From Pseudoxanthomonas sp. Root65 (GTDB taxonomy: Bacteria > Pseudomonadota > Gammaproteobacteria > Xanthomonadales > Xanthomonadaceae): a stretch of DNA of 64,000 nt. The notes beneath the pieces are model-generated. The model was not told the DNA's origin. It made no database searches and was given only the letters and a program-made list of their open reading frames with translations. The stretch lies in the NCBI RefSeq assembly GCF_001427635.1, contig NZ_LMHA01000001.1, positions 1,384,318-1,448,317 on the forward strand, in the 5' to 3' direction. Shown piece by piece: positions 32,610-45,499 of the stretch; position 1 is the first letter of the stretch; each line of letters opens with the position of its first letter. Position numbers and translations under genes: made by a program.

Positions 32610-34433
32610 TCAGCCCGCCGCGGGACGCCGCCGCTCCAGCCACCAAAGCAGGCCGCTTGCGAACAGCCAGCCGAGGAACCAGGGCCATGCCGGCCCGCGA
32701 GCGCCTTCCGTTCTCGACGAGGCCGCGACGCTGGACGGCGCGCGCGATGCCAGTTGCCGTGTGTGTTCGCGTACCGCCATCGCATGCAGCTGGGGTGCAT
32801 CGTCCGCCGCGCGCACGTGGAACGGTGCGGTCGCATCGCCCAGGGTCAGCTGGTGCCAGCCGGCCATGCGTGGCCAGAAGCCGCCACAGCCCGCGGCGCC
32901 GGTGGCCGGGTCGCGCTGCAGGCGGGTGACAGTGCCATCCGGTGCGCTCACCTGCGCGCCGCCGGCGAGAGCGCACAGCGCCACGCGCTGCGGGACGCGG
33001 GCGTCGTCAGGTGCCGACAGCGCCATCTCTGTGCCCGTCCGGGACAGCGTTCCCAGCGCCTGAGACCACAGCACGGCATGCGTATCGGCATGGCCGGTCA
33101 GGGCCAGGGTGTAGGTGTCGGTCGGCGTCCACGCGCCGATGCGGCCGCGCCCTTCCGCACGCCACCACGCGACCGCCGTGCCGTCGGCCGCGCGCAGCAG
33201 CGGGATCGCGTCCGGCGATGTCGTGCGCAGCGCCTGTCGCGTCAGCGTCGACAGGCCGGCCGGTATCGCATCGGCATCGACCGGTGCGTCCGCCGTGCCG
33301 GCGCCGCGGCGAGCGCGCCAGGCGTCGTCGTCGGGCGCAGGACGCGGCAGCTGGAATTCCGCGTCATCGCGGCCGGTCAGCGCCAGGCCGAGCATGCGTT
33401 GCACGCCTGGTGCCAGTGCGCCATCGGCACGCACCAGCACGCCGAGGCCGTCACGGACCGCCGCCACGAGGGCTGCACGTTGTCCGTCACCGAGCGCGGC
33501 GGCGCTGCGCGCGTCCAGCAGCACCAGGTCGAAGCGGCGCAGCGTGTCGGCCGTCATCGGCAGCGGCGCATCGCCCAGCTGCAGGCCGCCGCCCAGGCTG
33601 ATCTGCAGATGCAGCGGAATGCCGGCGTCGGCGGCCCAGCGGCGCAGGTACTTCCATTCCGCGTTCGGTGCGCCGGCCAAGGCCCAGACGCGCGGCGCCG
33701 AGGCGGGCTGGGTCCATACCGGCACGGTGGCGGTGTCGATGACCGCACGCTTCGCATCCAACACCTCGATGCGGAACTGCGCTGGCCCCGACAAACGGCT
33801 CAGCCCGTCGAGGCGAAAGCCCCCCTGCGCATCGACCGTCGTCGCATCGACCCGCTGGCCGGCCGGATCGCGCAGGACCACCGTCGCCTGCGGAATGCCG
33901 TGCACGCGGCCGCTGGCGACGAAGCCGGCGCCCGTCGCGACCGGTGCGATGGGTGAGAGCTGCACGATGCCGCGCGGCAACGGCGCCGCGGAGAAGGCCA
34001 GTGCGCGTCCATCCACCGCATCGCGGTCGCGCGGCTCCAGGCCGGCGCCGACGATGTACAGCGCACGGACCTCCGGACGACGGCGCAGTGCGGTGCCGAG
34101 GTCGGGGACGCGTTCGGCGTCGAGACCGGCCGGTGCTTCCGGCAGCGCGACGCGCGGCTGGCCGTCCAGCGATGCGGGCAGAGCGACGCGATCCGCCTGT
34201 GCGGTCATCACCACCAGCGTGCCGGTGGTCGTGGTCTGTCGTGGCGGCAGCAGGGTGACGTAGAGCAGCAGCGCGACCACGGGTTGCAGCAGGCACAGCA
34301 ACGCGAAGCGCGTCGGCGAACCGCGACGGTCATGCGGTGCGCCGTGACGCCACAACGCGAGGCGCAGCCACGCCATCACGACGGCCAGCGTCAGCAGACC
34401 GGCCAGCAGCAGCGACAGGGACATGGCGTTCAT
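32610..34433 (-). CDS. Large membrane protein of the MoxR-DUF58 cluster
   Basis: A 607-residue protein of unknown function. Two membrane segments lie at the N-terminus (LLLAGLLTLAVVMAWLRLAL and FALLCLLQPVVALLLYVTLL) and one at the C-terminus (WPWFLGWLFASGLLWWLERRR), leaving a large periplasmic middle. The middle has beta-rich Ig/carboxypeptidase-regulatory-like sequence (IPQATVVLRDPAGQRVDATTVD, GGFRLDGLSRL) and a Rossmann-like part (LRRFDLVLLDARSAAALGDG) resembling the glutamine-amidotransferase-like fold of BatA/DUF4159-type proteins. It overlaps the DUF4175 gene by four bases, so it belongs to the same operon. Likely an assembly or scaffold partner of the MoxR system. Confidence 0.75.
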   Translation of the reverse strand: MNAMSLSLLLAGLLTLAVVMAWLRLALWRHGAPHDRRGSPTRFALLCLLQPVVALLLYVTLLPPRQTTTTGTLVVMTAQADRVALPASLDGQPRVALPEAPAGLDAERVPDLGTALRRRPEVRALYIVGAGLEPRDRDAVDGRALAFSAAPLPRGIVQLSPIAPVATGAGFVASGRVHGIPQATVVLRDPAGQRVDATTVDAQGGFRLDGLSRLSGPAQFRIEVLDAKRAVIDTATVPVWTQPASAPRVWALAGAPNAEWKYLRRWAADAGIPLHLQISLGGGLQLGDAPLPMTADTLRRFDLVLLDARSAAALGDGQRAALVAAVRDGLGVLVRADGALAPGVQRMLGLALTGRDDAEFQLPRPAPDDDAWRARRGAGTADAPVDADAIPAGLSTLTRQALRTTSPDAIPLLRAADGTAVAWWRAEGRGRIGAWTPTDTYTLALTGHADTHAVLWSQALGTLSRTGTEMALSAPDDARVPQRVALCALAGGAQVSAPDGTVTRLQRDPATGAAGCGGFWPRMAGWHQLTLGDATAPFHVRAADDAPQLHAMAVREHTRQLASRAPSSVAASSRTEGARGPAWPWFLGWLFASGLLWWLERRRPAAG

Positions 34434-36604
34434 CGCGCCGGCTCCTGCCGCAGGGCATCCAGGTAGCGACGCCCCACGTCGTCGGTCGCGCCGCGTCGCG
34501 GCACCTGCGCGGGCGGCTGTGCCGAGGCGGACCACAGCAGCGACCGCAGCCGCTGCCGGCAGGGCGCGCAATCCGGATCGCCACGCACTTCGTCGATGGC
34601 CGCGAACAGGTCCAGCGCATCCGGCACGCGCGCTTCGTTGTTGCGCAGCCAGGCCTGCAACGCGTCAAGGTCGGCGGCATCCGCGGGCACGCGGTCGTTC
34701 GCGAGCGCGGCCCAGGCACGCGCGGGTGCCGGTGCATCGTCGTCCTGCTGGCGCGCGAGCGGTCCCAGCGCGCGCGGCGCGATGCCGGTGCGGTCGCCAC
34801 CCATCCTGCGCGTCTCGTCGATCGGCGGCAGTTCCGGCCCCACCCGCGCCAGGTAGATGCGGGTCGCCTGCTGTACCTGCTTGATGTACTCCAGCGCCTT
34901 GTAGGCGAACGGCAGCGCCTGGTCCGGATGGCCCTGGCGCAGGTGAAGTTCCGATTGCCACATCTGGTCCAGCGCCTTCTTCAGGGTGGCGCGCGTCTCC
35001 GGATCGAGCAGGGTCGCGGCTTCGGCATGGTCGTGGGTGTGGCCGTACGCCTCCAGCACGTCGGCTTCGCGGCCGAAGCTGGCGCCGGTCGCGCTGGTGA
35101 CCTCGCCATGCCCGTGGCCGTCGTCGGCCTGTGCGGATTCGCCAGCGTGGTCGTGGCCGTCGCCGTCCGCATGCGCTTCCTCGGCATCATTCGTCGGCGG
35201 CGGTTGCGGCTCGCCTTCGGCTTCCTCGCCGAGGAACTGGCCGTAACGCAGGCGCAGGATGCGCTGGTCCACGCCGATCGCATCCGAGCGGGTGACGAAC
35301 GTATCGGCTGCCAGGCTGCGCTTCTGCTTCTGCAGCGCTTCGGCGTCGATGATGATCTGGCGCTGGCTGCGGAAGTAGGCCGGCATCACCTTCTTCACCA
35401 TCCCTTCCAGCCCTGTGCTCTCCTGGCCAAGGTCGGCCGGCCAGCGCAGGATCAGGCCGGGACTCTGCGCGCGCTGCGGCGCGGGCGAACGCGTGTCCTG
35501 CACGGTGAGCTGCGCGATCAGGTCGTCCCCCACCGCCATGCCCAGCGCCTTCAGGTCCAGCGAGGCGGTGAAGCGGCGTGCCGTCGCCGGACCGGTGCCA
35601 CGCAGCGTCATCACCTGTTCCTTGAAGGCGATGTTCTCGCCGCTGCCCTGCGCGAGCGTCAGCTTCAGCGTCGCGCTCGGCGCGATGCCGTAGTCGTCGC
35701 GCGCCTCGAAGGCCAGCGGCCACCGCGTCTGCCCGACCGTCACCAGACTGAGACCGCGGTCCGGCGCGAGGACCTTCACCTCCGGCACACGGTCGGGAAT
35801 CGCATCCAGCCGGCGCAGCTTCGTCGGCGGCTGGCCTTCGGTGCCGGCCGCGACCACGCGGTACAGCGTCGACTTCGCCAGCACGTGCGTCGCCTGCCAG
35901 GTGTCGCCCGTGCGGCGCAGTCCGATGCGCTGGCCGTCGTGGAAGACCAGCGCCGCCGTGGACGGTTGCGGCTCGAAGCGCAGCGTCCATGCCAGCCGCG
36001 AGCCGGCGGGCGCCTTGGTGTCGAGCGAGGCCTCGTCGCGCGCGGCGAGGCCGGTGTAGGCGGGCGGCACCACGTGCAGGCGTTGCGCGACGAGGTGCGG
36101 GATGCCGGGCGCGGTGGGGACCGGCTCGTCGGAAGGCTGGAGCGCGCCGGGTCCGGTCGCGCGACCGGGCCATAACAGCGCCGTCGCCATCACGACGGCG
36201 GCCGCGATCCACAGTGCGACGATGCGTGCCCACGGCCACGGCGTGCGAAGGTCCGGCGCGGGCTGCGCGCGCAGGCGTTCGCGCACGCGCGCCTGCTGCA
36301 ACTGCTGCAGGGGCGTCAACGACGCGGGTGGCGTCAGCAGCAGGTCGGTGCTGTCGTCGAGATCGGCGCGCCGCGCATCCAGTTGCCGCACCAGCCAGCG
36401 CGTGTCGAACGCACGCGTCCGTCGCCACGCGAGGATCGCGAGCAGCGAGAAACCGATGACGGCGATCATCATCGCGAGGCCCGGCGACGTTAGCCGCCAC
36501 AGCACACCGCCCACCGCCACCGGGATCGCCGCGCCCAGCAGCAGCTGGCCTAGCAGCGCATGCCGGCGCGCCTGCCCCAGACGGTCGCTTGCGGACGGCG
36601 TCAT
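34430..36604 (-). CDS. DUF4175-family membrane protein with a histidine-rich segment
   Basis: A 724-residue protein with three membrane spans near the N-terminus (about 17-37, 43-60, 126-145) and a long periplasmic remainder. Family-type features are VVPPAYTGLAARD, VKVLAPDRGLSLVTVGQTRWPLAFEARDDYGIA and the alpha-helical C-terminal half with AEALQKQKRSLAADTF and RLRYGQFLGEE. Residues 474-527 are Asp/Glu/His-rich with clusters GDGHDHAG, DDGHGHGE and GHTHDHAE, a likely metal-binding spacer. DUF4175 proteins co-occur with MoxR, DUF58 and BatA genes in many bacteria; function unknown. It overlaps the genes on both sides by four bases. Confidence 0.8.
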   Translation of the reverse strand: MTPSASDRLGQARRHALLGQLLLGAAIPVAVGGVLWRLTSPGLAMMIAVIGFSLLAILAWRRTRAFDTRWLVRQLDARRADLDDSTDLLLTPPASLTPLQQLQQARVRERLRAQPAPDLRTPWPWARIVALWIAAAVVMATALLWPGRATGPGALQPSDEPVPTAPGIPHLVAQRLHVVPPAYTGLAARDEASLDTKAPAGSRLAWTLRFEPQPSTAALVFHDGQRIGLRRTGDTWQATHVLAKSTLYRVVAAGTEGQPPTKLRRLDAIPDRVPEVKVLAPDRGLSLVTVGQTRWPLAFEARDDYGIAPSATLKLTLAQGSGENIAFKEQVMTLRGTGPATARRFTASLDLKALGMAVGDDLIAQLTVQDTRSPAPQRAQSPGLILRWPADLGQESTGLEGMVKKVMPAYFRSQRQIIIDAEALQKQKRSLAADTFVTRSDAIGVDQRILRLRYGQFLGEEAEGEPQPPPTNDAEEAHADGDGHDHAGESAQADDGHGHGEVTSATGASFGREADVLEAYGHTHDHAEAATLLDPETRATLKKALDQMWQSELHLRQGHPDQALPFAYKALEYIKQVQQATRIYLARVGPELPPIDETRRMGGDRTGIAPRALGPLARQQDDDAPAPARAWAALANDRVPADAADLDALQAWLRNNEARVPDALDLFAAIDEVRGDPDCAPCRQRLRSLLWSASAQPPAQVPRRGATDDVGRRYLDALRQEPAR

Positions 36605-37764
36605 GGCGCCACGCCTCGTATGCGGCGCGTCGCCATCCAGCGCTCCACCAGCACCAGCAGGACGATCAGCAGCGCCAGCCATGGCTGCAGGTCGCGCGGT
36701 GCGACCGGATACGTCGCGCCCCCGGTCGCCGGCGCGTAGTCGGTCGCCAGCACGCGAGTTGGGGCAGCGCCAGGCGCATGGAACAACGCGCGCAGGTGTT
36801 GCGGGAAGTCGGCCTCGACCAGTTCAGGCATCGCATCCGCCCGCAGCGGACGGGTGAAGCGCAGCACGCGGCCCTTGCCGCGTCTGGCCGCTTCGACCAG
36901 CGCGGCGCCATCGGCATCGCGCCACGGCGTCGTGTCGGCGGTGAAACCGTCGAGCGCGCTGTCGTTCGCCAGCAGCAACGTGCCGCCGGACACGATCCAC
37001 TGCACGACGGTTGCCGGCACCGGGCCGGGTACCAGCCAGACCAGCGGCATCGTGGTGGCAGGCAGGGGTTCGTCAGCCGTTCCGACCTGCAGCGACGACG
37101 ACGTCGAGGACGCGGGTTGCCAGGCCAGCGCAGCGGCGCGCAGATAGCGCAGCCCCGTGTCGTTGCCTGCCGTGTGGCGCACCGCGAGCGTGGGCGGCGG
37201 CGAGACGAACGCGGGGGGTGCCGCCATTGCGCCCTCGACCACGGTCCAGGTCACTGCGCGCGACAGCAGCGGGCGTTCCGCGTCCGCGCCTTGCAGCGTC
37301 GCCGGCACGATGACGGTCAGCGGCGCCCCCGGCGGCAGCTCTGCATCCAGTTGGCGCAACAGGCTGCCGATGGCGGGCGTGCCGGCGGGTGCGGCTTGCT
37401 CCAGCGAAGGAAAGCCGGGCGCCAACCAGTGCAGGCGGGCCTCGGCATCGGGTGCCTGCCTGCGCACGCCCGCAACGTCCACGCCAGGGATAGCTATGAT
37501 CCATGGACGCGTGTCGTCCGCGCCGGACAGCACGGGCTTGGCCAACCACAGCGCCAGCAGTGTCAGCAGCAGCAGGCGCACCAGCAGCAGCGGCCATTCG
37601 TCGAAGCGGATGCGGTGGCGGGGCTTGGGTTTCTGCCGCAGCCAGCGCAGCGCAGCGAAGTCGGTCGGCGTCTGTTCGTGGCGGCGCGCCAGGTGCAGGA
37701 GCAATGGCAGCAGCAACGCGGCGAGCGCGGCCAGTCCGGCGGGCAGCAGCAGTGACAGGCTCAT
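36601..37764 (-). CDS. BatA-like N-terminal-domain membrane protein
   Basis: A 387-residue membrane protein. The N-terminus (SLLLPAGLAALAALLLPLLL, then HLARRHEQTPTDFAALRWLR) is the BatA/aerotolerance regulator N-terminal signature, followed by a second span at about 59-78 (PLLLVRLLLLTLLALWLAKP). The middle carries a periplasmic alpha/beta domain, and the C-terminus ends with DLQPWLALLIVLLVLVERWM and a basic tail. No von Willebrand MIDAS motif (DxSxS) is visible, unlike full BatA proteins. Its place between DUF58 and DUF4175, with four-base overlaps on both sides, supports a joint complex in the inner membrane. Confidence 0.82.
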   Translation of the reverse strand: MSLSLLLPAGLAALAALLLPLLLHLARRHEQTPTDFAALRWLRQKPKPRHRIRFDEWPLLLVRLLLLTLLALWLAKPVLSGADDTRPWIIAIPGVDVAGVRRQAPDAEARLHWLAPGFPSLEQAAPAGTPAIGSLLRQLDAELPPGAPLTVIVPATLQGADAERPLLSRAVTWTVVEGAMAAPPAFVSPPPTLAVRHTAGNDTGLRYLRAAALAWQPASSTSSSLQVGTADEPLPATTMPLVWLVPGPVPATVVQWIVSGGTLLLANDSALDGFTADTTPWRDADGAALVEAARRGKGRVLRFTRPLRADAMPELVEADFPQHLRALFHAPGAAPTRVLATDYAPATGGATYPVAPRDLQPWLALLIVLLVLVERWMATRRIRGVAP

Positions 37765-38651
37765 GCGTACTCCGCCGCGTCGCGCGCGCCGAACAGCCGC
37801 CGCAGCGGCAGGTCCAGCGGCTGATCGGTGTAGTAGCGCGCATGGCGGATGCCGCTGGCATCCAGTCGCGCATCGAGCAGGCGCTGCGCCTCGGCGAAAC
37901 GCTGCAGATAGTCGGCGCGCAGCGCGGCGGCATCGCCCAGCAGTTCCTCGGCGGTCTCCGGATCGCGGAAGCGATGGCCGCCGGTGAACGGGAAGTCGCG
38001 CTCGTCCGCCGTCAGCAGCTGGATCGCCAGCACCTCGCGGCGGGCGGCGGCCAGGCGTTCGATCAGCGCGATCATCGCCTCGTCGAACCCATCGCTCAGC
38101 GCCATCACCAGATCGCCGGCACCGATCCGTTCCCACACCGGCGCGAGGTTGTCGGCCGCGGGAAACGTCCCGCCCGCGCTCAGCCCGTGCAGCGCCAGCA
38201 GCAGCTGGTCGCGCTGGCGCGCGCCATTGCCCGGGGACACCAGGCGCACGCCATCGCCGTGCAACACGAGCAGGCCGAAGCGGTCGCCCTGGCGCAGCGC
38301 CAGCTCGGCGATGCAGGCGGCCAGTCGCCGCGCGGCATCGAAGCGGGTGCCGCGTTCGCCATCGCGTTGCGTCATCGAGGCGGTCGCGTCCAGCACAATC
38401 CACACCGTCAGCGGACTCTCGCGTTCGGCCTCACGCACGAAGAAGCGGTCCGAGCGTGCGTACAGCTTCCAGTCGATCTGGCGCAGCTCGTCGCCCGGTT
38501 CGTAGGCGCGGTACTGCGCGAACTCCAGCCCGGCACCGCGGCTGCGGCTGTGGTGCACGCCGATCCCCTGCGCGCCGATCGCGCGGCGCGCGGTCAGCCG
38601 CAGCTCCTTCAACCGGCTGCGGACGTCGGCGGGGATCAGGTCGTGCGCCAT
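37761..38651 (-). CDS. DUF58 domain protein (von Willebrand A-like)
   Basis: A 296-residue cytoplasmic protein of the DUF58 family. Characteristic are GIGVHHSRSRGAGLEFAQYR, the signature YEPGDELRQIDWKLYARSD, and VWIVLDATASMTQRDG, a DxTxS variant of the metal-ion-dependent adhesion site of von Willebrand A domains. DUF58 proteins are the standard partners of MoxR AAA+ ATPases and are thought to present clients or act as adaptors. It starts ten bases after MoxR ends and overlaps the BatA-like gene by four bases, so the order moxR-DUF58-batA-DUF4175-large membrane protein is one operon. Confidence 0.92.
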   Translation of the reverse strand: MAHDLIPADVRSRLKELRLTARRAIGAQGIGVHHSRSRGAGLEFAQYRAYEPGDELRQIDWKLYARSDRFFVREAERESPLTVWIVLDATASMTQRDGERGTRFDAARRLAACIAELALRQGDRFGLLVLHGDGVRLVSPGNGARQRDQLLLALHGLSAGGTFPAADNLAPVWERIGAGDLVMALSDGFDEAMIALIERLAAARREVLAIQLLTADERDFPFTGGHRFRDPETAEELLGDAAALRADYLQRFAEAQRLLDARLDASGIRHARYYTDQPLDLPLRRLFGARDAAEYA

Positions 38652-38661
38652 GGAAGCCCGA

Positions 38662-39657
38662 TCAGGCGGCGAGCGGCACGCCGCGCAGCAGCGCGGCGAT
38701 CACATCGTCGGCACTGACCTGTTCGGCTTCGGCCGCGAACGACAGCAGCAGGCGGTGCCGCATCACCGGCTGCGCCAGGGCGATGATGTCCTCGCGCGTG
38801 GCGGCCAGGCGGCCGTGCAGCAGCGCGCGCGCCTTGGCGGCGAGCACCAGCGACTGGCCGGCGCGCGGACCTGCGCCCCAGCGCACGTACTTGCGGACCT
38901 CGTCGGGCACGCCGTCGCCGGGCCGGCTGGCGCGCACCAGCCGGGTGATCCAGCGCAACAGGTCGTCGCTGACGTGCACGTCGCGGACATGCTTCTGCAG
39001 CGCGAGCACGGCCTCGCCCTCCATCACCCGCGGCACGTCGCCGCCGGCACGGCCGGTGGTCTGCGCCAGGATGTCGTGTTCTTCCTGCTCGCTCGGGTAC
39101 TCCACGCGGATGTGCAGCAGGAAGCGGTCCAGCTGCGCTTCCGGCAACGGGTAGGTGCCGGCCTGTTCCAGCGGATTCTGCGTGGCCAGCACGAAGAACG
39201 GCGAGGGCAGTTCATGCGTGGTGCCGGCATAGCTGACGGTGCGCTCCTGCATCGCTTCCAGCAGCGCGGCCTGCGTCTTCGGCGGCGTGCGGTTCAGTTC
39301 GTCGGCGAGCAGCAGGTGGGTGAAGATCGGCCCGGGCTGGAAGCGGAAGTGGCGGTGGCCGGTGCCATGGTCCTCCTCCAGCAGTTCGGTGCCCAGGATG
39401 TCGCTGGGCATCAGGTCGGGCGTGAACTGCACGCGGCGGAACTGCAGGTGCAGCGCCTGGCCCAGCGAGCGCACCAGCAGCGTCTTGCCGAGCCCGGGCA
39501 CGCCTTCGAGCAGGCAGTGGCCGCCGGCGAGCAGGCCGATCAGCAGTTGCTCGACGACATCCTGCTGCCCGACGATGGCCTGGCCGATGGCGGCGCGGAG
39601 TTCGCCGAGTTTCGCGAGTTGCTGCTGGAGGTCGGATTCGGTGAGGGCGGCGGTCAT
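38662..39657 (-). CDS. MoxR-family AAA+ ATPase
   Basis: A 331-residue chaperone-like ATPase. It has Walker [12 protein letters not shown], Walker [11 protein letters not shown], sensor 1 in [25 protein letters not shown], and the C-terminal lid with sensor 2 Arg. MoxR ATPases hexamerise and help mature or insert metal cofactors into enzymes, working with von Willebrand A or DUF58 partners encoded beside them. This gene is followed within ten bases by DUF58. Upstream lie DUF4159, TldE- and TldD-like genes on the same strand, separated by a 103-base gap holding a palindromic repeat. The clients are unknown; the TldD metalloproteases are natural candidates. Confidence 0.93.
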
Positions 39658-39704
39658 GGGGTTTCCTTGCTGCTTTCAATGCAGCGGGTTGCAGTGAGGA
39701 GCAA

Positions 39705-39732
39705 CGTCATCCCAGCGTTCGCTGGGATGACG
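39705..39732. repeat. Single palindromic repeat, family C
   Basis: A 28-base perfect hairpin element: CGTCATCCCAGCG, then TT, then CGCTGGGATGACG. It is a lone copy of the unit found as pairs at 27296-27388 and 43766-43862. It lies in the gap between DUF4159 and MoxR genes and could be a transcriptional or mRNA-processing boundary. Confidence 0.9.
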
Positions 39733-39760
39733 CCGGAAACAGTGCGGTGGGCGAACAGGG

Positions 39761-40465
39761 TCATGTCGTCAACGCATAGATCACGAGGTTGACACCGAAC
39801 TTCGTGTTGTCCTCGGCCAGGAAGCGCTTGTTGCGCCAGTCGTAGTCCCACTCGCAGCCGTAGTCCTTGTTGCTGTAGAGCACACCGAGGCGGCCGTTGA
39901 TCTCGATGCCCTGCAGGTACTCGTGCACCAGGTCGTCGCCCCAGCCGTTGAGCTCGAAGCTGGTGGCGGGCGGACCGTCGAACGTGAAGAACGAGGAGTA
40001 GATCGCGTGCGTGTTGGGCAGCTTCTTCATTGTCTTTGCGCCGAAGATCGCGGCCATCTGCGCCTCGAACGACTTGGCGAACAGGCCGTCGATGTCGTGG
40101 TTGCAGTCGTCGACGAAGACGAAGCCGCCGTTGCGCACGTAGCGCTCGAAGTTGCGCTTCTCCGCCGGGTTGAAATCCACCAGCTTGTGCCCCGCCAGGT
40201 AGCAGAACGGCGCGGCTAGCATGCGCGGGTCGGCCAGCGCCAGCACGTGTTCCTTCGGGTCCACGCGCAGGCTGGTGTAGTCGATCAGCGAGGTGATGAG
40301 GTTGGACGGCATGCGCGCGTCCACGTCCCAGTCGCCGGAGTCGTACTTCAGGCGGGTGAAGCGGAAGTCGTAGTTGCCCGCCGCACGTGCGCTGCGCGAT
40401 GCGCCGGCCAGCAGCGCGCCGGCGAGGCCGCCGGCCATGAGCTTCAGGAACTCGGCGCGGGTCAT
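39761..40465 (-). CDS. DUF4159 domain secreted protein
   Basis: A 234-residue exported protein. The signal MTRAEFLKLMAGGLAGALLA resembles a Tat signal but has RA rather than RR, so Sec export or a Tat variant are both possible; cleavage is near ASRSARA. The mature part matches DUF4159: YDFRFTRLKYDSGDWD, MPSNLITSLIDYTSL, FVFVDDCNHDIDGLFAKSFEAQM, THAIYSSFFTFDG and LGVLYSNKDYGCEWDYDWRNKRFL. Related domains are often fused to BatA-type proteins, which links this gene to the MoxR operon downstream. The fold is a class I glutamine-amidotransferase-like one in relatives, with no known activity. It is on the same strand between TldE and MoxR. Confidence 0.85.
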   Translation of the reverse strand: MTRAEFLKLMAGGLAGALLAGASRSARAAGNYDFRFTRLKYDSGDWDVDARMPSNLITSLIDYTSLRVDPKEHVLALADPRMLAAPFCYLAGHKLVDFNPAEKRNFERYVRNGGFVFVDDCNHDIDGLFAKSFEAQMAAIFGAKTMKKLPNTHAIYSSFFTFDGPPATSFELNGWGDDLVHEYLQGIEINGRLGVLYSNKDYGCEWDYDWRNKRFLAEDNTKFGVNLVIYALTT

Positions 40466-40482
40466 GGGGGAGGAGTGAGGTA

Positions 40483-40555
40483 AGAGGAGTGAGGAGTGAG
40501 CGCTGCCCCCACCGCCCCACGATCCATCTCGCTTCTACTCACTCCTCACTCCTCT
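40483..40555. repeat. 18-bp inverted repeat built of GAGGAGTGAG units
   Basis: AGAGGAGTGAGGAGTGAG at 40483-40500 is exactly complementary to CTCACTCCTCACTCCTCT at 40538-40555, with a 37-base loop. The stem itself is a tandem of AGGAGTG units. It fills most of the gap between the TldE-like and DUF4159 genes and could act as a partial terminator or mRNA stabiliser. Its purine-rich AGGAG units resemble ribosome-binding sites but are 18 or more bases from the DUF4159 ATG. Confidence 0.85.
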
Positions 40556-40572
40556 CCACTCGCTTCTCGCCG

Positions 40573-41907
40573 TTACACCGCGTCCGACAGCGAGGTGAAG
40601 GTGAAATCGCGCAGTTTCATCGGCGGGATCATCATCACGAAGCTGGACTCGTCGCCGGCCACGCGCACCGGCCGGCCCAGTTCCTCGATGTTGTTGAGCA
40701 TGATCACCGGCGACTCGTTGAAGCGGAAGTTCTTCACCGGGTACTTGATCTGGCCGTTCTCGATGTAGAACGTGCCGTCGCGGGTCAGGCCGGTCAGCAG
40801 CACGGTCTGCGGATCGACCATGCGGATGTACCAGGTGCGGGTGACCAGGATGCCCTTCTGCGTGCCGGCGACCAGCTCGGCGGTGGACTTGGTGCCGCCG
40901 GCGACCAGCAGGTTGCCCGGCGAACCGACCGCGCGCTTGCCCTGCTTCTGCGCCCAGAAGCGCGAGTACTCCAGGTTGACCACCTTGCCGTTCTCGACGA
41001 TGGCCATCTTCTCGCGCGGCAGGCCTTCGTTGTCCCACGGCATCACTTCCGCGCCGGGGTGCCACGGGTCGGCGCTGATGTTGACGCGCGGATCGTAGAC
41101 CTGCTCGCCCAGCTTGTTGCCGCCGCCCTTCTTGGACAGGAAGCTGCGGCCTTCGTCGGCCTGGCGCGCGTCGAAGAAGTTCATCATGAACGAGATCAGG
41201 CCCGCGGCTGCGGCCGGTTCCAGGATGACCGTGTACTTGCCCGGCTCCAGCGCCTTGGCTTCGGCCGATTCGCTGGCCTTGCGCATCGCGGTGCGGATAT
41301 CGCTGTCGGCCTTGAACGCGTTGGCATCCTTCAGGTTGCGGCCGACCCAGCCGGAACCGCGGCCGTCTTCGGTGCGCACGGTGCAGGTGTAGTTGAACGC
41401 GGTGGCCTTCTGGTAGCCGAAGTTGCCCTTGCTGTTGGCGAAGGCGACGAAGCTCTGGCCGTCTTCCAGGAAGCCGGCGGCGATCAGCTTCTCGGCCTTG
41501 CAGGGCGCGATGGAATCGGCCGCGACCTGCGCACGGAATTCCGGCGTGATGGCGGCGGTCGATTCGCTGAAGGTGGGCGAGGGCTTGTAGGTCTGCTTCT
41601 CGACGGCCGGCATGAACTCGGGGTTTTCCGGCGCCAGGCGGGCGAGGTCTTCGGCGCGGCGGACCACGCGCTCCAGCGCGGCGTCGTCGAACTCGTTGAT
41701 GGTCGCCACGCCGGTGCGCTTGCCGAAGGCCACCTGCACGGCCAGGTCGGTGTTGCTGACGATGCCGCTGGTGGAGACGTTGTTCAGCGCGAAACGGATG
41801 TTGCCGTCGACGGAGCCGGTGAGGGACGCGGTGCACTCGTCGGCCTTGGACAGCGCCAGGACCTTGTCGAGGATGGCCTTGGCCTGCGCTTCGGTGAGGA
41901 TGCTCAT
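40573..41907 (-). CDS. TldE/PmbA-like metalloprotease subunit
   Basis: A 444-residue member of the TldD/TldE (PmbA) family. It lacks the HExxxH zinc motif, as expected for the TldE-type subunit. Family sequence includes the N-terminal helical part (AQAKAILDKVLALSKADEC), LGEQVYDPRVNISADPWHPG, NEGLPREKMAIVENGKV, LLVAGGTKSTAELVAGTQKGILVTRTWYIRMVDP and the C-terminal FYIENGQIKYPVKNFRFNES. In E. coli, TldD and TldE form a heterodimer that degrades unfolded peptides and matures microcin B17. No signal peptide is visible here, whereas the upstream TldD-like partner has a Tat signal. It starts 26 bases after that gene ends. Confidence 0.9.
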   Translation of the reverse strand: MSILTEAQAKAILDKVLALSKADECTASLTGSVDGNIRFALNNVSTSGIVSNTDLAVQVAFGKRTGVATINEFDDAALERVVRRAEDLARLAPENPEFMPAVEKQTYKPSPTFSESTAAITPEFRAQVAADSIAPCKAEKLIAAGFLEDGQSFVAFANSKGNFGYQKATAFNYTCTVRTEDGRGSGWVGRNLKDANAFKADSDIRTAMRKASESAEAKALEPGKYTVILEPAAAAGLISFMMNFFDARQADEGRSFLSKKGGGNKLGEQVYDPRVNISADPWHPGAEVMPWDNEGLPREKMAIVENGKVVNLEYSRFWAQKQGKRAVGSPGNLLVAGGTKSTAELVAGTQKGILVTRTWYIRMVDPQTVLLTGLTRDGTFYIENGQIKYPVKNFRFNESPVIMLNNIEELGRPVRVAGDESSFVMMIPPMKLRDFTFTSLSDAV

Positions 41908-41933
41908 GTTCTGGTGATCTCCTTAAGCGCCGG

Positions 41934-43568
41934 TCAGCCGAGCGAGCGGGCGGTGTTGATGACGTTCATGCCGTTGAAGCGCGCGGTGGACGACCCGTGC
42001 GAGACCGCGGACACCTGGCCGGGCTGGCCCTTGCCGTCGAAGAACGAGCCGCCCAGGCGGTAGTCGCTCTCGTCGCAGATCGCGGTGCAGGCGTTCCAGA
42101 ATTCCGGCGTGCGGATCTGGTAGGCCACGTCCTCGAGCTGCTGGGTGATCTTGCCGTTCTTGATCTCGTAGAACAGCTGGCCGCCGAACTGGGCGTTGTA
42201 GCGCTGCTGGTCGATCGAGAACGAACCGTCGCCGATGATGTAGATGCCGTTCTCGACGTCCTTGATCATGTCGGCCACCGACAGCTTGTCCTTGCCGGGC
42301 GCCAGCGACACGTTGGCCATGCGCTGGAATTGCACGCTGCTCCACGAATCGGCGTAGCAGCAGCCGTCGGAGGCGTCCTTGCCCAGGATGTGGGCCTGGT
42401 CGCGGATGGTCTGGTAGTCGACCAGCTTGCCTTCCTTCACCAGGTCCCAGCGCTTGGTCTTGACACCTTCGTCGTCGTAGCCCACCGCGCCCAGGCTGCC
42501 CGGCTGCACCTTGTCGGCAAACAGGTTGACGATGCCGCTGCCGTACTGGAATGCCTCGTTGCGCTTGTCCAGCGTGGCGAAGCTGGTGCCGGCGTAGTTG
42601 GCCTCGTAGCCGAGCACGCGGTCCAGCTCCAGCGGATGGCCGACGTTTTCGTGGATGGTCAGCCAGGTGTGCGACGGATCCAGGACCAGGTCGTACTTGC
42701 CCGGCTTGACCGACGGCGCGGTCAGCTTGGCGCGCGCCTGCTTGGCGGACGCGATGGCGTCCTCCTTCATGTCGTAGGACAGGCCGTAATTGATGACCCC
42801 ATTCGGCGTGGTGTACTTCTGCGAGGCATCGCCATCGAGATACTCGTAACCCATGCCGACCGGCGAGGACAGGCCGTCGCGGGTGCGGAACTTGCCCGTC
42901 GCCTTGTCGATCGCGGTGACCGTCATCGGCACCCAGAGGCGGTGCACGTCCTGGTCGATGTAGGAGCCGTCGGTGCTGGCAAAGTACTTCTGCTCGTTCA
43001 CCAGGAACATCATCGAGTTGACGAAGTCGGCCCCGGCGTTGATCGCGGCGGCGTTGACGCCCAGCAGCAGGTCGACCTTGTCCTTGATCGGCACCTCCAT
43101 CGCGTTCTTCTTGATCGGCGTCTTCCACGCCACCTCGCCGAAGCCCGGCGCCTTGGCCAGCTGCACCGGCGCGGTCTGGGTCTTGCTGTTGGCCTTGGCG
43201 ATGGCGGCGGCCTGGCGCGCGGCACTGGCCACGCCTTCGGCGGTCAGCGTGTTGGTGGCGGCGAAGCCCCAGGCGCCGTTGGCGATCACGCGGATGCCGG
43301 CGCCGGCGGACTCGGTGTTCACCACGTTCTGCACCTTGTCCTCGCGGGTGATCACGAACTGGCGCAGGTAGCGGCCGATGCGCACGTCGCAGTAGGTCGC
43401 CCCGGCCTGCTTGGCCGCGGCCAGCGCGGCGTCGGCCAGGCGCTTCTTCAGCGCGACATCGAGGGTGGACTGGAGTTGCTCGGCGGCGATCGCCTTGCCG
43501 AAGTAGGACGGCACCATCAGGCCGCCCACGGTCAGGCCGGTCAGGGCCAGGAAGTCACGACGTTGCAA
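41934..43568 (-). CDS. Tat-exported TldD-like zinc metalloprotease (copy 1)
   Basis: A 544-residue protein. The N-terminus MQRRDFLALTGLTVGGLMVP is a twin-arginine signal, so the folded enzyme should be exported to the periplasm. The zinc-binding HExxxH is HENVGH in LTIHENVGHPLELDRV. The C-terminus holds GGSFFDGKGQPGQVSAVSHG, where E. coli TldD has a Cys ligand; here the conserved His of VSHG may replace it. The start codon is TTG at 43568: it has GGAGA eight bases upstream and aligns with the ATG of the second copy at 45499. The two copies share most of their length. It is probably the partner of the TldE-like protein just downstream. Confidence 0.9.
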   Translation of the reverse strand: MQRRDFLALTGLTVGGLMVPSYFGKAIAAEQLQSTLDVALKKRLADAALAAAKQAGATYCDVRIGRYLRQFVITREDKVQNVVNTESAGAGIRVIANGAWGFAATNTLTAEGVASAARQAAAIAKANSKTQTAPVQLAKAPGFGEVAWKTPIKKNAMEVPIKDKVDLLLGVNAAAINAGADFVNSMMFLVNEQKYFASTDGSYIDQDVHRLWVPMTVTAIDKATGKFRTRDGLSSPVGMGYEYLDGDASQKYTTPNGVINYGLSYDMKEDAIASAKQARAKLTAPSVKPGKYDLVLDPSHTWLTIHENVGHPLELDRVLGYEANYAGTSFATLDKRNEAFQYGSGIVNLFADKVQPGSLGAVGYDDEGVKTKRWDLVKEGKLVDYQTIRDQAHILGKDASDGCCYADSWSSVQFQRMANVSLAPGKDKLSVADMIKDVENGIYIIGDGSFSIDQQRYNAQFGGQLFYEIKNGKITQQLEDVAYQIRTPEFWNACTAICDESDYRLGGSFFDGKGQPGQVSAVSHGSSTARFNGMNVINTARSLG

Positions 43569-43765
43569 GGCTGTTCTCCACCATGGGGCCTGCGCAGGCA
43601 GGCGGGGACTGCGACGGACGCGTTGAGCCCCGCGCCATGTCCACCGCGCGGGTCAGCCCCGATTCTTGCGCCGGGGTGGAGACAGCGTCAAATGACTTTA
43701 GGCATAGATGAAGCCCGTCAACGTGATCGAACGCACCCTCCTGGGTTCGCGCGCGCACCTCGAAC

Positions 43766-43862
43766 CGTCATCCCAGCGCACGCTGGGATCCATTTGGGTT
43801 TGATCTTCCAGTCTGATTCGGAGCAAAGAGCAAGATGGATCCCAGCCCACGCTGGGATGACG
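43766..43862. repeat. Palindromic repeat pair, family C
   Basis: CGTCATCCCAGCGCACGCTG at the left and CCCACGCTGGGATGACGG at the right, inverted, with about 45 bases between. It lies in the 302-base gap between the two TldD-like genes, just after the end of copy 2. The rest of the gap (43569-43765) holds no gene that I can see, but it probably contains the promoter for TldD copy 1 and TldE. Confidence 0.85.
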
Positions 43863-43870
43863 GCAACCCA

Positions 43871-45499
43871 TCACCCCAGCGATCGCGCCGTATTGATGAT
43901 GTTGATGCCGTTGAAGCGCGTGGTCGCCGACCCGTGCGAGACTGCCGAGACCTGGCTGGGCTGGCCCTTGCCGTCGAAGAACGAGCCGCCCAGGCGGAAG
44001 TCGCGCGCATCGCAGATGGCGGTGCAGGCGTTCCAGAACTCCGGCGTGCGGATCTGGTAGGCGGCGTCCTCGACCTGGCGGGTCACTGCGCCGTTCCTGA
44101 TCTCGAAGTACAGCTGGCCGCCGAACTGGGCGTTGTAGCGCTGCTGGTCGATGGAATACGAACCGCGACCGTGGATGTAGAGGCCGTTCTCCACGTCCTT
44201 CACCATTTCCGCCACGGTCAGCGGCGTCTTACCCGGCGCCAGCGACACGTTGGCCATGCGCTGGAACTGCACGCTGCTCCACGAATCGGCGTAGCTGCAG
44301 CCGTGCGAGGCGTCTTCTCCGAGGAGATGCACCTCGTCGCGCGTGGCCTGGTAGTTGACCAGCACGCCGTCCTTCACCAGGTCCCAGCGGCGGGTCTTCA
44401 CGCCTTCGTCGTCGTAGCCGACGGCACCGAGACTGCGCGGCTCGATCTTGTCGGCGGTGAAGGTGACGATCGGGCTGCCCCACTGGAAGCGCTGCTCGCG
44501 CTTGTCCAGCGTGGCGAAGCTGGTGCCGGCGTAGTTGGCCTCGTAGCCGAGCACGCGGTCCAGCTCCAGCGGATGGCCGACGTTCTCGTGGATGGTCAGG
44601 AACAGGTTGGACGGGTCCAGCACCAGGTCGCACTTGCCGGGTTTGACCGACGGCGCGGTCAGCTTGGCGCGCGCCTGCCTGGCCGCCGCCACGATGTCCT
44701 CGCGCAGGTCGTACGACGCGCCGTACGCGACCACGCCGCCGGGCAGCGCGATCTTGTCGGCGGGATTCGCGTCCAGGTACTCGTAGCCCATGCCCATCGG
44801 CGCGGACAGGCCATCGCGGGTCTTGAACTTGCCGGTCGCCTTGTCCACCACCGTCACCGTGAAGGGCACCCAGATGCGGTGCACGTCCTGGTCGATGTAG
44901 GAGCCGTCGGTGCTGGCGAAATACTTCTGCTCGTTGATGACGAACATGCGCGAGGCGGCGAAGCTGGCGCCGGCCGACAACGCGGTGGCGTTGGCGCCCA
45001 GCAGCAAGTCCACCTTCTCCTCCACCGGCACCGCCATCGCGTTCTTCACGATCGGGGTGCGCCACGCTACCTCGCCCACGCCCTTCAAGGGCGCCAGCTG
45101 TACCGGCTTGCCCTGGATGCGCGCATTGGCGCGGGCGATGGCCACGGCCTGGCGTGCCGCCGCGGCCACGCCGTCGGGCGTCTGCTCGTGGGTCGCCGCG
45201 AAGCCCCACGCGCCCTGTGCGATCACGCGCACGCCGACGCCGGAGGATTCGGTGTTCACCACGTTCTGCACCTTGTCCTCGCGCGTGATCAGCGACTGCC
45301 GCAGGTAGCGGCCGATGCGCACGTCGGCGTAGGTCGCGCCCGCGGCCGTTGCGGCGGCGAGCGCGGCGTCGGCCAGACGCTTCTTCTTTGCCGCGTCACC
45401 CGGTTCCAGCAGGGCCTCGGCGGCGATCACGCGCGTGCCGGGCAGGGCCAGCCCGGCGATAGTCAGGCCGCCGAAGGCAAGGAAGTCGCGTCGCTGCAT
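43871..45499 (-). CDS. Tat-exported TldD-like zinc metalloprotease (copy 2)
   Basis: A 542-residue paralogue of the gene at 41934-43568, with the same plan: Tat signal MQRRDFLAFGGLTIAGLALP, family segment VRIGRYLRQSLITREDKVQNVVNTESSG, zinc motif HENVGH in FLTIHENVGHPLELDRV, and C-terminal GGSFFDGKGQPSQVSAVSHG. Starting with a normal ATG, it is the first gene of the minus-strand series that runs down to DUF4159 and MoxR. Because only one TldE-like gene is present, either both copies share it, or one copy acts alone or pairs with the other. An envelope role (peptide processing or degradation) is inferred from the signal. Confidence 0.9.
   Translation of the reverse strand: MQRRDFLAFGGLTIAGLALPGTRVIAAEALLEPGDAAKKKRLADAALAAATAAGATYADVRIGRYLRQSLITREDKVQNVVNTESSGVGVRVIAQGAWGFAATHEQTPDGVAAAARQAVAIARANARIQGKPVQLAPLKGVGEVAWRTPIVKNAMAVPVEEKVDLLLGANATALSAGASFAASRMFVINEQKYFASTDGSYIDQDVHRIWVPFTVTVVDKATGKFKTRDGLSAPMGMGYEYLDANPADKIALPGGVVAYGASYDLREDIVAAARQARAKLTAPSVKPGKCDLVLDPSNLFLTIHENVGHPLELDRVLGYEANYAGTSFATLDKREQRFQWGSPIVTFTADKIEPRSLGAVGYDDEGVKTRRWDLVKDGVLVNYQATRDEVHLLGEDASHGCSYADSWSSVQFQRMANVSLAPGKTPLTVAEMVKDVENGLYIHGRGSYSIDQQRYNAQFGGQLYFEIRNGAVTRQVEDAAYQIRTPEFWNACTAICDARDFRLGGSFFDGKGQPSQVSAVSHGSATTRFNGINIINTARSLG

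Follow-up and report, generated by a model that had tools for sequence, protein, structure and literature searches.

An exported-type TldD/TldE protease and a MoxR/VWA machine encoded as one conserved envelope gene set: a candidate maturation system in Pseudoxanthomonas sp. Root65

The window analysed here is a stretch of 64,000 nucleotides from Pseudoxanthomonas sp. Root65, whose minus strand carries a run of nine open reading frames (ORFs; 32610-45499) encoding, in order of transcription, TldD1, TldD2, TldE, a DUF4159 protein, a MoxR ATPase, a DUF58 protein, a BatA-like protein, a DUF4175-like protein and a large membrane protein. Comparison of sequences across genomes gave good support for the TldD/TldE and MoxR parts being coupled as one system. 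We propose, with a probability of roughly 0.5, that these eight to nine genes form an envelope system in which a MoxR/VWA machine is dedicated to maturing or activating an exported TldD/TldE protease. It would most likely act on the metal site, and a histidine-rich periplasmic loop of the DUF4175-like protein would serve as metal donor or sensor. At the level of sequence the proposal builds on one conserved gene set, a leader of the twin-arginine translocation (Tat) type on TldD, none seen on TldE, and an aspartate in place of a cysteine metal ligand.

Contiguity of the genes was assessed in 79 loci, drawn from the best 80 of at least 572 confirmed exported-TldD relatives in species genomes and thus a set of nearest relatives, not a random one; one of the searches for relatives took in 24 of 26 matches and left out two partial ones. 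By their record titles the loci come from Gammaproteobacteria, Massilia/Telluria, many Bacteroidota and an acidobacterial metagenome-assembled genome. TldD/TldE, DUF4159 and MoxR lay in one stretch in 66 loci. The order TldE-DUF4159-MoxR was kept in 59 of these and TldD stood between in five (L023-L027, mostly Microbulbifer); L047 and L090, the latter with DUF4159 inverted, make up the rest. Four further loci were cut by contig ends, three at DUF4159 (L032, L054, L070) and one at TldE (L057), and in the remaining nine TldD/TldE stood alone. When the genomes of those nine and of L057 were searched, DUF4159 with MoxR was found elsewhere in all ten, beside TldD in nine and beside TldE at a contig end in L127; in L095 this site adjoins the locus, just past the fetched flank.

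At least three gene orders were seen over Gamma- and Betaproteobacteria, Bacteroidota and Acidobacteriota. In the second order DUF4159 is divergent and TldD lies at the far end (L090, L122-L125). In the third, found in two Acidobacteriota, a MoxR-DUF58-...-DUF4175-like-... series is followed by TldE and TldD (L150) or by TldD and TldE (L151); the BatA-like gene of both and the last membrane protein of L150 were assigned by position and by eye.

Presence and absence of the parts were compared in 150 Pseudomonadota genomes, the genome of the window included, and in 148 Bacteroidota genomes, including the centre genome G150, a known carrier of the operon. In Pseudomonadota, stand-alone DUF4159, exported-type TldD (>800 bits) and DUF4175-like protein (E≤1e-10) occurred in the identical six genomes; a seventh TldD match (G127, 157 bits) was of the signal-less type. 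DUF4159 of any kind was detected in 37 of the 150, in 31 of them within long open frames of 918-1,222 codons. In Bacteroidota, operon-type DUF4159 (a distinction of our own, with matches of 591-600 bases and 168-195 bits) and full-length DUF4175-like protein (>570 bits, every other match being at most 103 bits) occurred in the identical 13 genomes, and exported-type TldD was present in these 13 and in G169. Two genomes were not counted as carrying operon-type DUF4159, G195 (copies of 615-618 bases, 156-162 bits) and G258 (603 bases, 96 bits), and neither had an exported-type TldD at E≤1e-30. Ten of the 13 carriers had TldD and DUF4159 on one contig, no more than about 12 kb apart; in G244, G290 and G302 the two were on different contigs. 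Hypergeometric p values were 7e-11 for Pseudomonadota and 9e-18 for Bacteroidota, with shared descent ignored.

An earlier note on this DNA, made from the sequence alone, had proposed that the TldD/TldE and MoxR parts form one system and had named chance adjacency in this lineage as the result that would speak against it. Co-occurrence and adjacency across phyla strongly support the proposal, and the recurrence of the genes in three phyla and several orders contradicts an adjacency limited to this lineage. Chance adjacency as such was ruled out by the shared presence and absence and by the contiguity of the gene set in distant phyla. A weaker version, in which two unrelated modules are held together by inheritance or co-regulation, draws on the pairwise distances among six parts of the operon, which correlate at 0.75-0.94 (53 operons, computed without a housekeeping control and leaving out loci that lacked any of the six parts or had a DUF4175-like protein of 600 amino acids or less) and could reflect common descent alone, and on the TldD/TldE pairs that stand alone. 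We regard it as very improbable, since one gene set with near-perfect shared presence and absence over three phyla and several orders already contradicts it. TatC, present in 147 of the 148 Bacteroidota, was useless as a predictor of the operon. G169 carries an exported-type TldD/TldE pair (L132) in a genome without an operon-type DUF4159 or DUF4175-like match; either the exported protease stands alone there, or the genome is incomplete.

The conserved gene set is bounded by TldD and the last membrane protein. Among flanking ORFs of at least 90 amino acids, no conserved flanking gene or precursor was found (families in at least five loci were considered, and smaller ORFs were not examined); the recurring flanking families were, by eye, mostly Massilia-group neighbours, broad families and undetected homologues of the BatA-like or last gene. 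This negative result bears on the possibility that TldD/TldE processes one dedicated secreted peptide or envelope precursor and that the MoxR machine handles the same precursor. Such a role has precedents, in that TldD/TldE removes the leader of the microcin B17 precursor according to the passages available from PMC5810440, and TldD-type proteases mature other peptides, as outlined in part of PMC12257519. With no precursor found among the ORFs of that size, we consider a shared substrate rather improbable.

Export signals were counted in the 79 loci on TldD copies of more than 600 bits (n = 114) and on 106 TldE copies. The motif RRxF was found near the N-terminus of 110 of the 114 TldD; one copy had RRDFN, and three, all from one Mucilaginibacter genome, had RK. 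An RR-type leader pattern was present in one of the 106 TldE, and the 13 TldE N-termini inspected begin straight with the first domain. DUF4159 varied with lineage: a hydrophobic leader was detected in 17 of 19 copies classed as gammaproteobacterial (the other two are leader-bearing by eye), in one of 42 from Bacteroidota (doubtful), in none of seven from the Massilia group and in none from Acidobacteriota (n = 1), and the Bacteroidota protein of L134 has a Tat-like leader. DUF4159 of the leaderless lineages may stay cytoplasmic. In four of seven BatA::DUF4159 fusions, the predicted topology has a fourth membrane segment that puts DUF4159 in the periplasm.

The missing signal of TldE, and of many DUF4159 proteins, suggests Tat "hitchhiker" export, in which TldD would ferry TldE, and leaderless DUF4159, across the membrane as one folded complex. 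By analogy, ternary Tat hitchhiking was described for E. coli PaoABC in the part of PMC4273604 consulted; if the suggestion is right, the present complex would be another ternary Tat substrate. Of the 109 Bacteroidota genomes with DUF4159, at least 16 (e.g., G173, G215, G250 and G277; by eye) have a second, non-operon type of the protein less than 5 kb from tatC, and a link between DUF4159 and Tat outside the TldD operon is possible.

The metal ligands of E. coli TldD are His262, His267 and Cys454 (PMC5810440, as given in the passages available), and these positions were confirmed on the K-12 gene. The HExxxH motif was found in all 114 TldD and in none of the 106 TldE, and the exported TldD retain it together with the subsequent Glu and Asp. 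The place of Cys454 is taken by Asp in all 114 TldD of the 79 loci (107 by pattern, 7 by eye). In sets of the best 120 database proteins each, all of them close relatives, Asp occurred in 120 of 120 of the exported type and Cys in 120 of 120 signal-less Pseudomonas relatives (by pattern), while RRxF occurred in 115 and 0, respectively. The first alignments (MAFFT, hhalign) were ambiguous, with E. coli Cys454 beside the Asp and not on it. Bridging by the signal-less Pseudomonas family set PNCGKGEP against FFDGKGQP and brought E. coli VCGK into the same column in a subset of sequences; the equivalence of Cys454 and Asp is thus based on a bridged alignment and on GK, Glu and Asp being common to both, and has no structure behind it. 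Because Asp replaces the third, cysteine ligand, the exported TldD is a variant of the TldD family and not canonical TldD. The window copies scored 62-66 bits against the NCBIfam TldD equivalog, whose cut-off is 513.

The association of signal and ligand was examined in Acidobacteriota copies and L132. Signal with Asp was found in 11 copies, signal with Cys in 0, no signal with Asp in 3 and no signal with Cys in 10 (signals by eye), with Fisher p of 1.5e-4, not corrected for descent and including some rows that are near-copies or from the same genome. L155 (no HExxxH), the canonical-type second TldD of L143 and P0121/P0145 were left out of this count. In a tree, the TldD of standard operons and close paralogues formed one clade (20 rows, 100/100 support), and the exported-type L150 and L151 fell among Cys-type proteins (81/81). 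This placement means that signal and Asp either were gained together on two occasions or arose once and were later lost together; the fork that decides between these has only 81/81 support. The acidobacterial relative in L155 (G383) stands beside a TldE-like gene and is probably an inactive copy.

The TldD leaders might instead be mere membrane anchors or go unused, leaving the protease cytoplasmic. The lack of an RR leader on 105 of 106 TldE would be expected of a cytoplasmic pair as well, and DUF4159 is leaderless in most Bacteroidota. The prevalence of RRxF on TldD and its link with the Asp ligand in the above count make this reading highly improbable.

In the MoxR part, Walker A (with G or A) and Walker B were present in 66 of 66 MoxR proteins, and a D-x-S/T-x-S motif resembling the metal-ion-dependent adhesion site (MIDAS) was present in 60 of 61 DUF58 proteins; the window DUF58 protein gave a weak VWA_2 match. 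The large domains of the BatA-like, DUF4175-like and last proteins of the window were predicted to be periplasmic from hydropathy and positive charges. The BatA-like protein has the BatA N-terminal anchor alone, without VWA, by Pfam. A test for a Bat operon was negative, none of the other eight proteins being a Bat protein by Pfam. Anti-phage defence was likewise unsupported, PADLOC returning nothing beyond a weak match between MoxR and mad8 (21 bits).

The DUF4175 label of the earlier note holds only as a distant likeness: the window protein had no Pfam match at E≤1, and PF13779 matched 13 of 40 aligned members (39 of 60 locus copies and the window copy). The C-terminal part is family-specific, with invariant Ser-Gln-Arg-Gln (413-416), Tyr454, Gly459, Glu461, His522 and His524. 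The histidine fraction of the loop with the HxH motif was 0.125 in comparison with 0.011 elsewhere in the protein; it was higher in the loop in all 40 homologues, and the loop was close to the richest window of the protein in 38. The loop, which is probably periplasmic, is weak in L047, with one His before the motif. A universal histidine-rich loop was ruled out by its absence from the divergent Acidobacteriota variants L150 and L151.

The last membrane protein was aligned from 29 of 34 copies and the window copy. It is related (93% probability, E 3e-7) to a protein of about 700 amino acids that belongs to another MoxR core elsewhere in Pseudomonadota, in which MoxR and DUF58 (8 neighbourhoods) are followed by BatA::DUF4159. 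DUF4159 follows predicted membrane segments in seven of the long-frame proteins, and the one scanned with Pfam was a BatA-DUF4159 fusion. These genomes are presumably Alphaproteobacteria, because the Caulobacter control also matches. The 31 genomes with long-frame DUF4159 had no DUF4175-like protein (E≤1e-10) and no exported-type TldD, indicating that these two additions go together. In Bacteroidota, frames of about 1,100 codons, presumed to be DUF4175, match profile positions of about 145-455 only. The non-operon DUF4159 type lies about 1-2 kb from such a frame in at least 15 genomes (e.g., G200, G252, G231 and G285; by eye), and the pairing of DUF4159 with DUF4175 may be wider than the TldD operon. 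A possible cytoplasmic counterpart of the partnership occurs in an acidobacterial genome (G338), where L158 has MoxR- and DUF58-like genes followed, in the same orientation, by a signal-less TldD/TldE pair of the Cys type.

That the core operon occurs without exported TldD means that the core machine has a protease-independent job, and this favours the main rival to our proposal, quality control. Here the MoxR machine would act upstream, extracting, remodelling or unfolding envelope proteins or peptides, and the exported TldD/TldE chamber would destroy them. E. coli TldD/TldE breaks down unfolded peptides and encloses a central cavity as a shell (passages of PMC5810440), and the Rhizobium MoxR protein RL3499 has an important part in membrane integrity and in the shape of the cell (PMC3893208, in part). 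The DUF4175-like membrane part, however, tracks the protease, which fits a client-specific part better, and the MoxR proteins covered in the available sections of PMC3893208 are linked to partner maturation. Quality control therefore appears unlikely, though it is the alternative we take most seriously.

In the preferred reading, maturation by a dedicated machine, the Tat-signalled TldD would fold in the cytoplasm with signal-less TldE and probably also DUF4159, and the preformed TldD-TldE(-DUF4159) complex would be exported. A membrane-bound machine, consisting of the cytoplasmic MoxR ATPase and DUF58 with the BatA-like, DUF4175-like and last proteins reaching into the periplasm, would then mature or activate the exported metalloprotease, most likely at its metal site, and the histidine-rich loop would be the metal donor or sensor. 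Export itself, export as a complex, the direction of action, metal delivery and the substrate are what we infer here, and the same holds for the suggestion of the earlier note that the MoxR machine matures TldD or uses it as an output. MoxR proteins are linked to the maturation or activation of partners such as methanol dehydrogenase, nitric oxide reductase and CO dehydrogenase (PMC3893208, in part), and by analogy this precedent would accommodate a MoxR/VWA machine devoted to an exported metalloprotease. The Cys-to-Asp change and the histidine-rich loop make a metal-related maturation more plausible, without proving it.

Several observations weigh against this reading. The Tat assignments are based on motifs only; three Asp-type TldD have no visible signal (L138, L141, L143), and for three of the seven fused DUF4159 the prediction gave no fourth membrane segment at the threshold used, so that DUF4159 would stay on the cytoplasmic side. 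The histidine-rich loop and the RSQRQ motif are both missing from L150 and L151, and L151 itself yielded no DUF4159. Exported-type TldD/TldE occurs without MoxR beside it in L132 and without adjoining MoxR in the Acidobacteriota loci L139, L140, L142, L146 and L147 (searched within the loci, not in the rest of the genomes). Tat cargo is normally metallated before export, which weakens periplasmic metal loading and makes metal delivery the least certain form of the proposal. Its most specific version, in which the MoxR/DUF58 ATPase drives metal from the histidine-rich loop across the membrane into exported TldD-TldE-DUF4159 and the change from Cys to Asp suits the ligand to extracytoplasmic life, is doubtful.

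MoxR/VWA systems are widespread, but many lack a known client; in the present case the operon itself encodes the presumed one. The client belongs to a family with a solved structure, that of E. coli TldD/TldE, and has an unusual, checkable Cys-to-Asp change that accompanies the export signal. What MoxR machines do to their clients thereby becomes directly testable, and a well-known chaperone family would gain a new partner. If the proposal is true, a TldD/TldE protease would be active outside the cytoplasm.

Among known systems, E. coli TldD/TldE shares the PmbA_TldD domains, HExxxH in TldD only, the conserved Glu and Asp after it and the TldE partner, as far as PMC5810440 describes them in part. 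The proteins studied here differ in the Tat-type leader, Asp for Cys454, distant sequence, an adjoining MoxR operon and the retention of a separate canonical TldD. MoxR/VWA systems (MoxR proper with methanol dehydrogenase, NorQ, CoxD) resemble the window in having MoxR, an adjoining DUF58/VWA gene and membrane partners near a presumed client (PMC3893208, in part). In the present case the client would be an exported peptidase, and DUF4159, DUF4175-like and large membrane proteins are additional. The likeness may extend in detail to the mxa genes. The RL3499-RL3502 operon of Rhizobium leguminosarum, as cited in the sections available of PMC3893208, shares MoxR. The equivalent arrangement in the sampled Pseudomonadota differs from that of the window: DUF4159 is part of a BatA fusion (confirmed by Pfam in one protein), and neither a DUF4175-like match nor exported TldD was found in those genomes. 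The Rhizobium operon presumably also includes DUF58, a BatA-DUF4159 fusion and a membrane protein. In Pseudomonas, a signal-less Cys-type TldD/TldE-like pair related to the exported family ("peptidase C69"; L133 in G127, and P0121-P0240) is alignable through the ligand motif, but it has no Tat motif, has Cys in CGKGEP and, in L133, has no MoxR operon within the 15 kb examined; we know of no function for this pair.

The earlier note knew of no experimental description of the gene combination, which is nearly right. The consulted part of PMC7688217 lists a "not-yet-characterized operon" of Stenotrophomonas maltophilia with nine locus tags (NIPOLPBK_01784-01792), comprising two TldD, a putative protease, a MoxR-like ATPase, a membrane protein and three hypothetical proteins, and reports that some of its genes are expressed at a lower level in biofilm in all isolates. 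Judged by the gene list and not by sequence, this appears to be the same operon. Among the papers searched none mentions DUF4159, and a search for MoxR with PmbA returned PMC7688217 only; in the part seen of PMC4287336, MoxR and TldD are unrelated proteomics entries. The match inspected for TldD with DUF58 was, in the excerpt, DUF5825. For Tat with TldD or PmbA, none among the matches listed mentioned TldD in the text available, and TldD and twin-arginine were co-mentioned in a hot-spring paper, likewise available in part. Excerpts of three further papers name tldD genes: two adjacent genes in the Xanthomonas campestris HpaR1 transcriptome table (PMC6430473), a gene induced in Xylella on mqsR overexpression under copper (PMC8488296) and an entry in a Stenotrophomonas table (PMC8745565). 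The TldD/TldE-MoxR gene block thus seems uncharacterised. What the sequence comparison newly points to is the Asp at the Cys ligand, TldE without a signal and DUF4159 often without one, and the histidine-rich loop of the DUF4175-like protein.

In the window, all nine ORFs were recovered at the coordinates of Table 1. A Pfam scan gave PmbA_TldD in three proteins, with three domains above their cut-offs in each, as well as DUF4159, AAA_3 (MoxR), DUF58 and BatA, and together with the ORFs and N-termini this bears out the nine-gene minus-strand run with two twin-arginine TldD copies described in the earlier note. Its tight spacing of the last five genes was confirmed from the coordinates, with 10 bases between MoxR and DUF58 and ATGA overlaps at DUF58/BatA, BatA/DUF4175-like and DUF4175-like/membrane protein. 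The run was also called uninterrupted, which holds for strand but not for spacing: the upstream half is looser, with gaps of 302 bases (TldD1-TldD2), 26 (TldD2-TldE), 107 (TldE-DUF4159) and 103 (DUF4159-MoxR).

Table 1. Features of the gene run in the window (positions are those of the whole stretch)
Feature	Position	Strand	Remarks
TldD copy 1, 542 aa (amino acids)	43871..45499	-	Tat-type leader MQRRDFL; HENVGH; DGKGQP
TldD copy 2, 544 aa	41934..43568	-	TTG start (LQRRDFL as read from DNA); Tat-type leader; 75% identical to copy 1
Twin-arginine motif RRDFL, TldD1	45479..45493	-	
Twin-arginine motif RRDFL, TldD2	43548..43562	-	
HExxxH metal motif, TldD1, residues 304-309	44573..44590	-	
HExxxH metal motif, TldD2, residues 306-311	42636..42653	-	
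DGKGQP, TldD1	43958..43975	-	Asp509 at the place of E. coli Cys454, by alignment
DGKGQP, TldD2	42021..42038	-	Asp511 at the place of E. coli Cys454, by alignment
TldE/PmbA-like partner, 444 aa	40573..41907	-	No HExxxH; no RR leader
DUF4159 protein, 234 aa	39761..40465	-	Tat-like but imperfect leader MTRAEFLK
MoxR AAA+ ATPase, 331 aa	38662..39657	-	Pfam AAA_3
DUF58 protein, 296 aa	37761..38651	-	VWA/MIDAS-like motif LDATASM
BatA N-terminal (two-anchor) membrane protein, 387 aa	36601..37764	-	Central domain predicted periplasmic
DUF4175-like membrane protein, 724 aa	34430..36604	-	Large domain predicted periplasmic
His/Asp/Glu-rich loop, DUF4175-like protein	35102..35182	-	Candidate metal-binding loop
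HTHDHAE, DUF4175-like protein	35021..35041	-	First two His (522, 524) invariant in 40 aligned homologues
Last membrane protein, 607 aa	32610..34433	-	Distant relative of the ~700-aa protein after the fused BatA-DUF4159 gene in other MoxR operons

Genome-wide, there are a separate canonical TldD, only one DUF4159 and three further MoxR genes of 47-51% identity. The closest named relatives of the window TldD were from Pseudoxanthomonas and other Xanthomonadaceae. Palindromes of the type GTCATCCCAGC/GCTGGGATGAC, possibly elements like repetitive extragenic palindromes (REP), are located in the TldD1-TldD2 gap (43767-43861) and in the DUF4159-MoxR gap (39706-39731).

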